DNA of 64,000 nt from a virus. Where the stretch lies: positions 1 to 64,000 of IMG/VR virus record IMGVR_UViG_3300009509_000015. One strand, given 5' to 3'. The notes beneath the pieces were generated by a model. It was not told where the DNA came from. It did not search any database and was given only the letters and a program-made list of their open reading frames with translations. Shown in pieces: positions 3,315 through 14,107 of the stretch. Position numbers and translations under genes: made by a program. Within the stretch, counting starts at the first letter, position 1; every line of letters starts with the position of its first letter.

Positions 3315-3662
3315 ATGTCAGCAATAGGAGCAATCTTAACAGAAGAGCAAATCAAACAGGCACGTTCTAGGGTAGCATGGGAAGATGGCAACAAGGCTTT
3401 ACTGGTAGATACTTTGTATGTGGTACTAACAAATCATAGAGAGGATCAGGTATCACCATTCGATCCTTTTAGAATGAAGCTACCTGATAATATCCACACG
3501 GCAAATTGCGTTAAGGATATTTTTGAACTGTTACCAGACCATACACGTGTATATGATGGCTATGGTATGGCAGAACTAATCAAAGAAAATCACTACTTGC
3601 GCAGCAAGGTAAAGTTTCTTGAAACTGGTCAGCGTACACGTGAGCCTTGGGAGGTAAAATAA
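3315..3662 (+). CDS. hypothetical protein
   Basis: A 115-residue protein with GAAGGAG upstream of ATG 3315, one base after the previous stop. The C-terminal third (AELIKENHYLRSKVKFLE) could form a short coiled coil. Its stop overlaps the next start as TAATG. Confidence 0.55.
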   Translation: MSAIGAILTEEQIKQARSRVAWEDGNKALLVDTLYVVLTNHREDQVSPFDPFRMKLPDNIHTANCVKDIFELLPDHTRVYDGYGMAELIKENHYLRSKVKFLETGQRTREPWEVK

Positions 3663-5575: not shown

Positions 5576-5648
5576 AAGAATTTAGCTCAATGGCTGAGCG
5601 ACTGTCTTCTGGCACAGTAGGTTGGAGGTTCGAGTCCTTCAATTCTTA
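5576..5648 (+). tRNA. tRNA-Arg-like (TCT) with an 8-nt anticodon loop
   Basis: Perfect acceptor AAGAATT/AATTCTT, D arm GCTC/GAGC and T arm GGAGG/CCTTC. The anticodon stem ACTGT/ACAGT encloses eight bases (CTTCTGGC), one more than normal. TCT is the likely anticodon. Extra-base loops are typical of frameshift-suppressor tRNAs. It sits between the two long structured RNA segments and may be a domain of that RNA. Confidence 0.7.
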
Positions 5649-6055
5649 CCCGAAAAGAAAAAGCAAAGGAAAACGTCTAGGGTGTCGTAGAAGTTAAAAG
5701 AAGTGACTAACGTCTTTCACTGCTCAGGGGCTAACCCAAAGGCAGAGCGAAAGTACCTAGCTGGCTCCAAGCCACTAGGCTGTATCAAAGGAACTGGAGC
5801 AATACCTTCGACGGAAGGTGGCGTGAAGGAACTGGAGGTGCGGAGTAGACCCTACGACAGGATACGCACGCTACGTGCGGGAAACAGGAAGCCGAAGTTT
5901 GGTAAAGCGTAAACTGAATCGGGCAGTAGGTCACTGGTAAGCTACTGTGGGGCAACCCAGACAGTGGGAATCTCAGGACTAGGAATGGAAACTGAACTTA
6001 CTTGAGGAAGGCTTACTTAAATCTCGTAGACTACAGAGATAGGATGATTTCTTAT
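5649..6055 (+). ncRNA. large structured RNA, part B
   Basis: About 400 nt, purine-rich, between two tRNAs. Clear hairpins: CCTAG-TGGC with GCCA-CTAGG (5756-5779, one bulge); ACCTTC 5804-5809 with GAAGGT 5814-5819; CGCACG 5865-5870 with CGTGCG 5874-5879; CAGTAG 5924-5929 with CTACTG 5942-5947. Several GAAA segments could be tetraloops or adenosine-rich joining regions. It probably belongs to the same transcript as part A, with the tRNA at 5576 embedded. Confidence 0.65.
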
Positions 6056-7822: not shown

Positions 7823-8494
7823 ATGGGTGTACTGATATATCAAATGGGAAGAGTAGGATCAGTAGCAATAAACAGGGCACTAAAAAACGTAGGAGTTGAT
7901 ACACTACATGCGCACTACCTAGCTAATGGAGGAGAGCACTATAAAAGACTTCTTGCTGGTGACGATTTAATAAAAGCTGCAACGTATGACATAGTTACTC
8001 TTGTTCGTGATCCCATAGCACGTAATCTATCCGAGTATTTTAGGCGCATGAGTCCTAAAGTTGAGTATGATTACCAGTGGTTATACAAAAAGTTCATGAA
8101 AGACTTTAACCACATATGGCCTTTAGTATGGTTTGACCTAGAGTTTCTACCATTTACTGGTTTAGACCTGCTATACTGGGGCTTTCCTATAGAGCATACA
8201 GATACATTTCAAACAGCAATAGGACGTAACGTACTTGTGCTTCGCACAGATAAGCTAAACCAAAAATCAACCAGTGAAGCACTGTCAGAGTTTACTGGAA
8301 AAGAAATAGCAGAAATTCCAGTGGCTAATAATATATCAGAGAGACCTGGGCTTGATGTAATATACGATGCGTTCCTTTCTCAAGTGTGCTTTCCTGAACC
8401 TTTTGTAGAGTTCTTTTATAATAGTGCATACAGCATAGTATTTTTTACTGCAAAAGAACGAGAGCGCTTTATGAAGAGGTGGACATGCCAATAG
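7823..8494 (+). CDS. sulfotransferase-like protein 1
   Basis: A 223-residue protein. The N-terminus has a P-loop-like segment (YQMGRVGSVAINRAL, residues about 5-19), as in PAPS-binding sulfotransferases. Residues about 58-75 give LVRDPIARNLSEYF, matching the 3'-phosphate-binding RDP...R..S pattern. It resembles the sulfotransferase-fold group annotated as capsular polysaccharide synthesis proteins. The donor would be PAPS; the acceptor is unknown. GGAG precedes the ATG. It overlaps the paralogue downstream by 10 bases. A second and third copy lie at 8485 and 13097. Confidence 0.7.
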   Translation: MGVLIYQMGRVGSVAINRALKNVGVDTLHAHYLANGGEHYKRLLAGDDLIKAATYDIVTLVRDPIARNLSEYFRRMSPKVEYDYQWLYKKFMKDFNHIWPLVWFDLEFLPFTGLDLLYWGFPIEHTDTFQTAIGRNVLVLRTDKLNQKSTSEALSEFTGKEIAEIPVANNISERPGLDVIYDAFLSQVCFPEPFVEFFYNSAYSIVFFTAKERERFMKRWTCQ

Positions 8495-9168
8495 TGGTAT
8501 ACCAACCAGGGAAAGTAGGATCACAGGCAATAGCAAAAACACTAAATGATATGGGCAAAAAAGTATACCATGCCCACTATATTTATAACATAGCAGGTGA
8601 GTACTCCTCTGCTGCAAACTATAAACTAAAGAAAACATTATCAGAACTTAATCAACCATTACAAATTGTTACACCTATACGTGAGCCAATAGCAAGGAAC
8701 TTATCTGCGTACTTCTGGTCATTACCAAAGGATGCAAAGTATACGCCAGATATATACAAGCACCAGTTTATTAATAACTACCAACATGAATGGTTACTTA
8801 ACTGGTTTGACCACGAGTTTAATAATCTGTTTGAGATGGATATTTATGAACTAGCGTTCAACCAGCACAGGGGGTACTCAATCTATGAAGGCATGTGGAA
8901 TAAACAACCCCTCAGTATCTTGATCGTGCAGCAAGAAAAGCTTATGTTTAACTTCAAGGAAATACTGGTAAGGTTCTTTCACACTGATGCCTATCCAGTA
9001 GTACCTAGAGTTAATGAAACTAAGCAGTGGTTTTATAAAGATTTTAAATGCTGGTTGAAGTTACCTGAAGATTTCCTAGAGAAAATATATACATCTAAAT
9101 ATGCCAGACATTTTTATGGTGAGCATGATATAACTCACTTCAAAAATAAATGGCGTGAGCTAGCGTGA
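8485..9168 (+). CDS. sulfotransferase-like protein 2
   Basis: A 227-residue paralogue of the preceding gene: YQPGKVGSQAIAKTL at residues 6-20 and PIREPIARNLSAYF at about 68-81, where the usual Asp is Glu. ATG 8485 follows GAAGAGG. Its TGA stop (9166-9168) is tRNA positions 8-10 of tRNA-Leu(TAA), so the last 10 bases belong to both genes. Probable function: transfer of sulfate to a surface glycan or other acceptor; this is inference. Confidence 0.7.
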   Translation: MPIVVYQPGKVGSQAIAKTLNDMGKKVYHAHYIYNIAGEYSSAANYKLKKTLSELNQPLQIVTPIREPIARNLSAYFWSLPKDAKYTPDIYKHQFINNYQHEWLLNWFDHEFNNLFEMDIYELAFNQHRGYSIYEGMWNKQPLSILIVQQEKLMFNFKEILVRFFHTDAYPVVPRVNETKQWFYKDFKCWLKLPEDFLEKIYTSKYARHFYGEHDITHFKNKWRELA

Positions 9169-9274: not shown

Positions 9275-9303
9275 TTGACAATTAGCCGATAGTATGTCAT
9301 AAT
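9275..9303 (+). promoter_or_regulatory. sigma70-type promoter upstream of the Ser tRNAs and RNase P RNA
   Basis: TTGACA 9275-9280, 17 bp, CATAAT 9298-9303. It precedes a small gene, two tRNA-Ser genes and the RNase P RNA. Confidence 0.75.
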
Positions 9304-9337: not shown

Positions 9338-9439
9338 ATGACACCTATTTTAGTAATAACGTTCTTTGCTATTACCATTTTGGTAAGAGCATTAATAGGA
9401 AGGGTGATCGAATGGCAAGATGCTAGTCTAGAAAACTAA
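9338..9439 (+). CDS. 33-residue membrane microprotein overlapping tRNA-Ser
   Basis: ATG 9338 is preceded by AGGAGG at good spacing. The peptide starts MTPILVITFFAITILVRAL, one membrane helix, and ends in a short polar tail (WQDASLEN). The tail, from 9408 on, is encoded by the first 32 nt of tRNA-Ser(AGA), and the stop lies in its anticodon stem. The good ribosome site and hydrophobic helix favour a real gene. Confidence 0.5.
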   Translation: MTPILVITFFAITILVRALIGRVIEWQDASLEN

Positions 9440-9482
9440 GGCTGCGGTCAACCGCATGGGGGTTCAAATCCCTCCCCTTCCG
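9408..9482 (+). tRNA. tRNA-Ser (AGA)
   Basis: Class II. Acceptor GGAAGGG/CCCTTCC, anticodon stem CTAGT/ACTAA with a terminal mismatch, loop CTAGAAA, long variable arm TGCGG/CCGCA, discriminator G. A34 in a serine tRNA is unusual in bacteria, where GGA is the rule. Confidence 0.85.
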
Positions 9483-9486
9483 CAGA

Positions 9487-9571
9487 GGAAAGTTGGCAGA
9501 GAGGCAATGCGTCGGCTTGCTAAGCCGTAGCCATCCGTAAGGATGCAAAGGTTCGATCCCTTTACTTTCCG
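9487..9571 (+). tRNA. tRNA-Ser (GCT)
   Basis: Class II. Acceptor GGAAAGT/ACTTTCC, anticodon stem CGGC/GCCG, loop TTGCTAA, variable arm CATCC/GGATG, discriminator G. Confidence 0.92.
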
Positions 9572-9575
9572 CTAA

Positions 9576-9917
9576 GTCAAGATGGGTGGCTCTACGCTGG
9601 TCTAAATTTAGACTGGAGGAAGCTCAGGACTACACTGCTTAAGGTAGGAGGATATATGACTCAAGTTACATTAGTTAGCTCAGAAGAACCTGATCCAAAT
9701 TGTAAGCACAAAAGACAAACAACATTTACTTATAGACAAGGCAGAATAAAAGAAGTAGAAACGTATTGCCTCGACTGTTCGAGAACTTTATCCGTTAGCA
9801 CTACCGAGGTAGCAAGTGCAAGCAGCCTAGCGGGTGAGCAGCGCAACGATGGCGGGTAGCACGCATAGATAGATGTAGGGCTTAAATGACAGAATCCTGG
9901 CTATAGCCCATCTTGAC
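9576..9917 (+). ncRNA. rnpB: RNase P RNA
   Basis: The ends form an 11-bp P1 helix: GTCAAGATGGG 9576-9586 with CCCATCTTGAC 9907-9917. P3 is the hairpin GTCTAAATTTAGAC 9600-9613. CR-I reads GGAGGAAGCTCAGGA and CR-V reads ACAGAATCCTGGCTATAG. P4 pairs AGC-(T)-CAGGA 9621-9629 with TCCTGGCT 9895-9902 and keeps the universally conserved bulged U at 9624. An AGATAGATG segment precedes CR-V as in bacterial A-type RNAs. The 342-nt length is normal. RNase P removes tRNA 5' leaders, a fitting partner for a locus of about 30 tRNAs. Confidence 0.88.
9656..9859 (+). CDS. possible zinc-ribbon protein encoded inside the RNase P RNA
   Basis: A 67-codon frame with AGGAGG seven bases before ATG 9656. The first 45 residues contain a Cys-x-His and Cys-x2-Cys pair about 20 residues apart (CKHKRQTTF and YCLDCSRTL), resembling small phage zinc ribbons. 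The last 20 residues look like translated RNA sequence. It lies wholly within the RNase P RNA. It may be a real embedded gene or a chance frame; both readings are open. Confidence 0.35.
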   Translation: MTQVTLVSSEEPDPNCKHKRQTTFTYRQGRIKEVETYCLDCSRTLSVSTTEVASASSLAGEQRNDGG

Positions 9918-9941
9918 AAACTACTTTAATTATGGTATAAT
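9913..9941 (+). promoter_or_regulatory. promoter overlapping the RNase P 3' end
   Basis: TTGACA 9913-9918, 17 bp, TATAAT 9936-9941. The -35 is part of the 3' strand of RNase P helix P1. Expected start of transcription coincides with the ATG of the next gene. Confidence 0.85.
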
Positions 9942-12621: not shown

Positions 12622-13104
12622 ATGTCAACACGAAAGCTAACAACGTGGGAGATGGCAGAGTTTTACCCGATCTTTGGTAGTAATATAAAGTTTGGTGATA
12701 TAGTAGTACACGAAAGCAGCCCAATACCTAACCTAATTGACAGGATCGGTAGCTTTTTTACAGGAAAAGAACCCTATGCTAACAACGCAATTACTATAGG
12801 GAATAATGTTATGTTCCCAATGCCTATAGGCACAGACAAGGTATACTGGTTAATACATGAGGTAACACACGCTTGGCAGTATCAGCACATAGGGTGGAAG
12901 TACCTGTGGGATGCTGTCGTTGCACAATTTAGGGGCAAACCTTACGATTACGGTGGGGAAGATGGCTTGAATAGCCATACTAGTATATACGAATTTAATC
13001 CAGAACAGCAAGCGCAGATCGTACAAGACTATTATATACGAGTAGAGAACGGTGTGAACGCTGATGCCTGGAAACCATACATTGAGGAGATAAAAAATGG
13101 GTAG
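12622..13104 (+). CDS. HExxH metallopeptidase-like protein
   Basis: A 160-residue protein. Residues about 73-87 read WLIHEVTHAWQYQHI, a zincin HExxH with an aromatic-rich flank, as in DUF4157-like peptidase domains. No signal peptide. A downstream Glu that could complete the zinc site occurs in FNPEQQAQ, but the third ligand is not certain. GGAGG precedes the ATG; it overlaps the next gene by 8 bases. Substrate unknown. Confidence 0.6.
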   Translation: MSTRKLTTWEMAEFYPIFGSNIKFGDIVVHESSPIPNLIDRIGSFFTGKEPYANNAITIGNNVMFPMPIGTDKVYWLIHEVTHAWQYQHIGWKYLWDAVVAQFRGKPYDYGGEDGLNSHTSIYEFNPEQQAQIVQDYYIRVENGVNADAWKPYIEEIKNG

Positions 13105-14107
13105 TAGCTTAGTAGATGAGGGATCAGTTATTAGAAAGTTTAAATACTTTCTTGTTGTTGAAGCACCTAATGAGCTTGACGAACATGGAAACCCTAGGAA
13201 AACATGGCAAGTAGTAAGCACTACTAGGGCAATAGTATCTGGAGAAAATGTAACACAAATTCTTAACGACTTTTGTATACGTTATGAGATTACCCCTCCT
13301 ATTTTACCATTAAGCTTAACGTTTATTGGAGAAGAGCTTATAGACTTATCTGAAAAGCAAACTCTCCTGCTTTATCAAATGGGTAAAGTAGGTAGTGTAT
13401 CAATAAGATCGGCTCTTGAAAAGCTGGAATGGTTAGAAACAAGGCATATGCACTACCTAGTTAACGAGGGAGAGTACGGTACACGCTACGATCCTGTATG
13501 GTTACGTAGATTGGAGACAGAAGATACTATATGGAAAGTAATCACGTTGGTTAGAAACCCAATAGATCGCTGCGTATCTGGTTTCTTCTGGAGTATGATA
13601 GGAAAAGAAGAACCATTCCATGAGGGTATGTTGGACATGTTTGTGAATGAGTATAATCACAACTGGACTGTAGACTGGATGGAGAATGAGCTTAATAAAG
13701 CACTCAACACTAACATTTATAATTATCCGTTTAATAAAAATCGTGGCTACTCCCTATACCATAGGACTGCTGACAATGTAAGACCATACTTTCATTTGCT
13801 AGTTATCAGAACAGAGGATATGAGTCAAGTAGCTAGAACTGCTATAGCAGAACTACTACCAGAAGCTGATGTTGGAAATATTAACACGCTAAACTCCTCT
13901 ATAAAAAGAAAGCCGATAGCAAATGCGTACAGCCAATTCAAAGCTCAGGCAGTATTACCAGATGACTATGTTGACTGGATACTTAACACAAGATATGCCA
14001 AGCATTTTTATTCTGATGAGGAGCTTGCGGTTTCTAGGGCTATGTGGACACTACCAGCAGAAGAAAGGCTATCTTTCTTAAAGGATATGATAGAAAAAAA
14101 TAAATAA
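13097..14107 (+). CDS. sulfotransferase-like protein 3 with extra N-terminal domain
   Basis: A 336-residue protein. The first 90 residues are an extra domain of unknown type (contains KTWQVVSTTRAIVSGEN). From about residue 91 it follows the two paralogues at 7823 and 8485: YQMGKVGSVSIRSAL, then LVRNPIDRCVSGFF, where the common Asp is Asn. PAPS-dependent sulfate transfer is inferred. GGAG lies upstream. It is followed by tRNA-Glu. Confidence 0.68.
   Translation: MGSSLVDEGSVIRKFKYFLVVEAPNELDEHGNPRKTWQVVSTTRAIVSGENVTQILNDFCIRYEITPPILPLSLTFIGEELIDLSEKQTLLLYQMGKVGSVSIRSALEKLEWLETRHMHYLVNEGEYGTRYDPVWLRRLETEDTIWKVITLVRNPIDRCVSGFFWSMIGKEEPFHEGMLDMFVNEYNHNWTVDWMENELNKALNTNIYNYPFNKNRGYSLYHRTADNVRPYFHLLVIRTEDMSQVARTAIAELLPEADVGNINTLNSSIKRKPIANAYSQFKAQAVLPDDYVDWILNTRYAKHFYSDEELAVSRAMWTLPAEERLSFLKDMIEKNK

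Follow-up and report, generated by a model that had tools for sequence, protein, structure and literature searches.

The locus and the RNA within it

The window analysed here is a 64,000-nucleotide stretch (positions 1 to 64,000) of the 75,360-bp virus record IMGVR_UViG_3300009509_000015 from IMG/VR. The record encodes a terminase, a portal, a head protease and a major head protein and is therefore that of a tailed phage; a search with the terminase matched only fragments of the same phage. ARAGORN lists 31 tRNAs and one tmRNA in the record. The tRNA genes in the window (3954-28194) carry no encoded CCA, most of them ending in the discriminator followed by CC, AC, TC or GC, and for one of the ARAGORN-listed set (5576-5650) the program gives an anticodon of four bases, tctg. 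Inside the tRNA array are also three NKWYS (PF10364) polysaccharide-synthesis-like proteins (7823-8494, 8479-9168 and 13097-14107), one of which has in addition a weak sulfotransferase match, and at 1845-2642 the window encodes an ArdC-like anti-restriction protein made up of an ArdcN and a zincin-like MPTase-PolyVal domain.

Within this array, 4 nt after the mature end of a tRNA-Ser(gct), begins the P1 helix of the RNA that is the subject of this report (Table 1). The initial annotation, made by reading the letters alone, had proposed a phage-encoded RNase P RNA here, in a phage tRNA array directly after two tRNA-Ser genes, with an 11-bp P1, a P3 hairpin, CR-I, CR-V and a P4 with a bulged uridine. 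Each of these elements lies at the place proposed, to the nucleotide, as do the tRNA-Ser(aga) and tRNA-Ser(gct) directly upstream, and the identification is borne out by an end-to-end match to RF00010, by the relatives described below and by the tailed-phage nature of the record. That account is incomplete: the specificity (S) domain is missing from the RNA, an open reading frame lies inside it and RNAs of its family are widespread in phages.

The match to RF00010 covers model positions 1-367 on the + strand and scores 66.2 bits (E 6.3e-20 for the 621 nt searched; E 1.8e-21 in a record-wide search). It is significant, though it lies under the curated gathering score of 100 bits, and for this reason a default Rfam scan was silent at 9576-9917, returning tRNAs and the tmRNA only. 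A DNA similarity search against GenBank phages found the tRNA-Ser alone. Single-sequence energy folding did not recover the fold and the energy of the RNA is not unusual (z -0.27), so that the case for an RNase P RNA rests on the covariance model and on the relatives. An out-of-sample model, R1, made from 16 phage RNAs other than that of the window, finds the window RNA at 57.5 bits (E 1.7e-10 in 279 kb); its 5' arm is aligned inside the open reading frame because the large insert displaces it.

Table 1. Coordinates of the features of the locus, and of the RnpA of another phage (last row), with pairing partners and the basis of the assignments.
Feature	Position	Strand	Pairing or remark	Basis
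Sigma-70-like promoter, 11/12	9275..9303	+	upstream of the Ser-Ser-RNase P RNA unit	consensus match only
tRNA-Ser(aga) and tRNA-Ser(gct), mature parts	9398..9571	+	no encoded CCA	
Phage RNase P RNA, catalytic domain only, ORF-bearing insert	9576..9917	+		RF00010, R1
P1 5' strand GUCAAGAUGGG	9576..9586	+	pairs with CCCAUCUUGAC (9907-9917), 11 bp	sequence
P3 hairpin GUCUAAAUUUAGAC	9600..9613	+	conserved in L037	sequence
CR-I (GAGGAA) and P4 5' strand	9616..9629	+	P4 is AGC-u-CAGGA (9621-9629, bulged U9624) with UCCUGGCU (9895-9902), 8 bp	sequence, covariation
P5 5' strand CUAC	9630..9633	+	pairs with GUAG 9809-9812	covariation
P6 pseudoknot 5' strand CUGCUUA	9635..9641	+	pairs with UGAGCAG 9835-9841 in L17	covariation
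P7 5' strand GGUAG	9643..9647	+	pairs with CUACC 9801-9805	100% paired, 39 double-change cells
Shine-Dalgarno AGGAGG, perfect	9646..9651	+	overlaps P7 and the 5' strand of the cap hairpin; same in L037	
P7 cap replacing the specificity domain	9648..9800	+	GA, hairpin GGAUA (9650-9654)/UAUCC (9789-9793), GUUAGCA	
67-aa ORF inside the RNA	9656..9859	+	CxH...CxxC; stop codon in the GGU/CGGGUAG motif	
P15, P16, P17	9816..9862	+	P15 is GUGC 9816-9819/GCAC 9859-9862	covariation
CGGGUAG motif (L15)	9853..9859	+	includes CCA-binding GGU 9855-9857	
AGAU-AGAUG element, CR-V ACAGAA, P4 3' strand	9867..9902	+		CR-V read from sequence
Sigma-70-like promoter, 12/12, TTGACA-17-TATAAT	9913..9941	+	towards tRNA-Cys	consensus match only
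RnpA of LR745206.1 (PF00825)	76444-76752 (L082:609-956)		DRNRIKRLMRE motif	

The window RNA has in common with class A RNase P RNA (RF00010; E. coli M1 RNA) P1-P3, CR-I, P4 with its bulged U, P5, the P6 pseudoknot, P7, P15-P17, CR-IV, CR-V and the CCA-binding GGU in L15. It differs in that the S domain (P8-P14, with CR-II and CR-III) is gone, P7 being closed by a cap hairpin instead, in that no P18 hairpin was found in it, and in being encoded by a phage and having an open reading frame inside. It thus lacks two features of class A proper, a score at the curated level and an S domain; its catalytic core places it in the RNase P RNA superfamily (Rfam clan CL00002). The cap measures 153 nt, against about 20 nt in many relatives, because of the insert. 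A first guess, in which CUGCUU paired with AAGCAG, was dropped, since those bases form P6 with L17.

Two observations concern the promoter-like sequences. The -35 box of the one at 9913-9941 overlaps the 3' strand of P1, and by eye a TTGACT-17-TATAAT can be seen at the 3' end of the related RNA in contig L037 (about 3417-3445).

A family of phage RNAs and the conservation of its fold

IMG/VR was scanned with two patterns, one for the CR-IV/CR-V half of the RNA and one for the CR-I/P7 half. An RNase P RNA is carried by more than 60 IMG/VR virus contigs, which range in length from 6 to 527 kb and include some near-duplicates. Most of these RNAs have the capped reduced form and they are often found beside tRNAs; the S domain is kept, whole or in part, in about ten (L007, L009, L010, L011, L016, L017, L019, L036, L040 and L043). 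In many relatives the cap takes up about 19-22 nt and consists of GA, a small hairpin and a seven-base joint, followed by the P7 3' strand, as in L004 (GUGG-GA-GAC UUAAUC GUC-GUUAAUA-CCAC) and L015 (GGUGG-GA-GGC UCAC GCC-GACUGCA-CCACC). Throughout the family L15 retains its CCA-binding GGU. Transfer RNA genes are present at 31 of the 43 loci tested; the nearest one is on the same strand wherever this was measured and lies within 150 nt in 22 loci. Unannotated RNase P RNAs were also found in two huge phages in GenBank, LR745206.1 (634,780 bp) and LR756511.1 (595,163 bp).

Scores of the relatives against RF00010 range from no match up to 168 bits. The search of whole records with this model missed L004, which a lax scan finds, and absences in whole-record searches consequently mean little. 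After an initial dismissal L006 proved a true member (R1, 118.8 bits), and L005 gave no match to R1. Five pattern matches (L026, L028, L031, L071 and L073) arose by chance and are not members, and L072 has an S domain and is an rnpB of the ordinary Parcubacteria type.

RNase P RNA is as a rule a chromosomal gene, and the record is derived from a metagenome, as would be expected if a host rnpB had been brought in by mis-assembly or contamination. This explanation is scarcely credible, and is already refuted by synteny with a second phage: in the 101,694-bp contig L037 the order is, as in the window, tRNA-Ser(gct), RNase P RNA, tRNA-Cys, tRNA-Arg. The many virus contigs with such an RNA, a large number of them with tRNA arrays, also speak against it, as does the near absence of the reduced form from cellular genomes, where the CR-I/P7 pattern for this form, which finds 29 phage contigs, hits four places in 257 Gb. 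Two of the four are chance matches, one is an ordinary CPR rnpB and one is a reduced RNA (L074). The contig that bears this last RNA (WJJK01000240.1) is binned as an Altiarchaeales archaeon; its reduced RNase P RNA has an open reading frame and its proteins match phage families, and it is probably a mis-binned phage.

The relatives allow the fold to be assessed by covariation. Among the 16 RNAs, that of the window left out, 95.8% of cells are paired in the named structure against 74.6% when shuffled, and 129 cells show double changes against 35; neither value was reached in any of 500 shuffles. When the partner strand was slid by 1-3 columns in these RNAs, every register collapsed, pairing falling to 28-45%. 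With 42 RNAs including that of the window, P4 is 99.1% paired and has 64 double-change cells against a shuffle maximum of 29; the corresponding counts, with shuffle maxima in brackets, are 40 (16) for P5, 33 (14) for P6, 39 (19) for P7, 46 (22) for P16 and 49 (22) for P17. P1 has a mean length of 10.4 bp in 44 phage RNAs, compared to 7.5 bp in swapped flanks. Loss of the P4/CR-I/CR-V pairing in related phages, which would have told against the initial annotation, was looked for, and the pairing is kept, with compensatory changes. In P4-P7 and P15-P17 these alignments show decisive covariation, which indicates that the RNase P RNA fold is under selection in phages.

The same data bear on whether the window RNA could be a degenerate host rnpB, captured, interrupted by a gene and now serving only as an mRNA leader. 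Such a remnant would be expected to score below the gathering threshold, to have lost the S domain and to have an open reading frame running through its core, all of which is seen. It would not be expected to show the strong signal of compensatory change seen in dozens of phages, nor, in the window itself, standard pairs at every position of P4, P5, P6, P7 and P17, an intact P1 and a core preserved to either side of the insert, and this origin appears very improbable.

The reading frame in the cap

The open reading frame in the window RNA has 67 codons and starts four bases past the Shine-Dalgarno sequence. Its path leads from the cap loop through P7, P5, P15, P16/P17 and the partner strand of P6. 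The same frame is found at the same place in L037, with 44% identity and with the CxH, FTY and CLDC motifs kept; the cap is 153 nt long in the window RNA and 117 nt in L037, and the difference of 36 nt is divisible by three. The CxH...CxxC arrangement is a possible zinc site. At the same place L013, L074 and L032 have unrelated open reading frames, and all five caps longer than 105 nt have a frame that leads from near a Shine-Dalgarno sequence into the core, always in the one frame. In dinucleotide shuffles of the window insert a Shine-Dalgarno-started frame through the core occurs in 0.3%; the frequencies for the other four long inserts are 2.1%, 6.7%, 2.4% and 8.5%.

From these features the frame is probably translated. 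Alternatively, it could be a chance frame in an insert that is simply a longer RNA loop, which would leave a predicted ribozyme standing. The dN/dS of the frame (0.66/0.96 over 32 codons) is compatible with this, sequence conservation alone being weak and not decisive, and loops of 50-100 nt without such a frame do exist (L041, L042, L064 and L048). The rarity of the frame in the shuffles (0.003), its recurrence in the five longest inserts and the motifs and cap lengths of L037 make a chance origin unlikely. Searches of Pfam and PHROG with the 67-aa protein gave no family at a meaningful score and protein searches found nothing beyond L037; weak matches in two other records cover only the C-terminal part, where the frame runs through the RNA core, and were set aside.

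Predicted activity and comparison with known RNase P RNAs

Taken together, 9576-9917 is most likely a phage-encoded, catalytic-domain-only RNase P RNA with a nested gene and a predicted activity; in full, we would put at about 0.78 the probability that it is a functional enzyme which uses host RnpA on phage tRNAs and which doubles as an mRNA. The homology, the covariation, the domain loss and the open reading frame with its conservation in a second phage come from the sequences themselves. Catalysis, the RnpA partner, translation and the exclusivity of the two functions are what we infer from them.

The RNA would probably be co-transcribed with the pair of tRNA-Ser upstream of it and be freed by tRNA 3' processing. 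Phage RNA and host RnpA would then assemble and cut the 5' leaders of phage pre-tRNAs, the substrate being read via its acceptor stem and CCA end, for which the GGU is kept, and not via the T loop. Given that the tRNA genes of the window have no encoded CCA, this would have to be added, presumably by the host, either before or after cleavage. RnpA (PF00825) is absent from the window record and from 45 others, that is, from 46 of 47 phage records, many of which are fragments. Since the window record has no rnpA, host RnpA must fit its RNA, and phages of this kind would use the host protein. The exception is the 635-kb phage LR745206.1, which encodes both an RNase P RNA and an RnpA (49 bits).

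In bacterial RNase P the catalytic part, the one retained in the phage RNAs, is also the protein-binding part. It could be, then, that the RNA is a decoy: with the fold of its catalytic domain it would bind host RnpA, thereby holding back tRNA maturation in the host or diverting the protein. The loss of the substrate-specificity domain with retention of the protein-binding part would suit a decoy, as would the scarcity of rnpA in the phage records. Divergent phages have all retained CR-I, CR-IV, CR-V, the bulged U, P6 and the CCA-binding GGU, none of which a decoy would need; furthermore one phage brings its own RnpA and the genes are located in tRNA arrays. A decoy function is therefore considered improbable, and an active enzyme remains the favoured reading.

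An active enzyme is also suggested by what is known of truncated RNAs. A construct of E. coli RNase P RNA from which the S domain has been removed, leaving the catalytic domain (CP RPR), cleaves both with and without C5 protein; disruption of its P6-like pairing lowers the rate 8 to 28 fold, and P18 is of little weight once the S domain is removed (PMC5839562). The phage RNAs resemble this form in their strong P6, P15-P17, GGU, missing S domain and small or absent P18, and activity is predicted from that likeness. The E. coli form is a laboratory deletion, whereas the phage RNA is a natural one. The 153-nt insert of the window RNA could impair folding.

The loop of the cap hairpin would carry a small protein gene, so that the transcript doubles as mRNA. 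With the Shine-Dalgarno sequence in P7 and the cap hairpin, and with translation expected to unfold P7, P5, P6 and P15-P17, the anatomy suggests that translation and catalysis should be mutually exclusive on one molecule. More tentatively, the dual-function ribozyme and mRNA, its ribosome-binding site buried in P7, might encode a zinc-binding product whose target is this very RNase P, where it would serve as a switch or as a subunit taking the place of the S domain, translation and catalysis again excluding each other; this elaboration is rather doubtful.

To our knowledge, catalytic-domain-only RNase P RNAs were previously limited to laboratory deletions and one archaeal family. The type T RNA of Pyrobaculum and other Thermoproteaceae has a degenerate S domain and no P18, and a P6 has been proposed for it (PMC5839562). 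The window RNA is similarly degenerate in the S domain (cap only) and lacks P18; the type T RNA differs in being archaeal and cellular, in belonging to a multi-protein enzyme and in having no open reading frame, whereas the phage reduction has taken place in bacterial-type RNAs. The bacterial-type RnpA of the related phage LR745206.1 argues against an archaeal host or archaeal RNase P proteins. RNase P RNAs of CPR bacteria have also diverged, are missed at curated Rfam cut-offs and have lost helices (PMC8172020). They differ from the phage RNAs in being cellular and single copy, in having lost the S domain only partly (P12-P14) and in that most lack the CCA-binding motif which the phage RNAs keep (PMC8172020).

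A literature search found no report of a phage RNase P RNA or, as far as could be found, of a protein gene nested in an RNase P ribozyme; the search covered few subscription papers and preprints, and an earlier report of the phage RNA is possible. An Rfam check of megaphages listed tRNAs and a tmRNA only, and one workflow used RNase P RNA as a check of completeness (PMC8172020); in a survey of huge phages tRNAs and tmRNAs were annotated and RNase P was unmentioned (PMC7162821). Phage tRNA arrays and tmRNAs occur in the same cluster and are likewise translation RNAs, but they are substrates or adaptors whereas RNase P RNA is a processing enzyme. An RNA treated as a cellular gene is now found to be phage-borne, extending the phage toolkit from the substrates, tRNAs, to the processing ribozyme, and natural bacterial-type RNase P RNAs of the catalytic domain alone offer a way to test what the specificity domain does.

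Some of the phage contigs with an RNase P RNA have further RNA elements. Matches to permuted tmRNA (RF04321) occur in two of them, at L018:6318-6605 (-) and L008:9125-9189, the latter cut by the end of the locus. In L035 the loop of the P7 cap contains a tRNA-like element (876-947, -; RF00005, 25.7 bits; fold z -2.5) that has an acceptor stem and a T arm but lacks a normal anticodon arm, possibly a substrate inside the enzyme.
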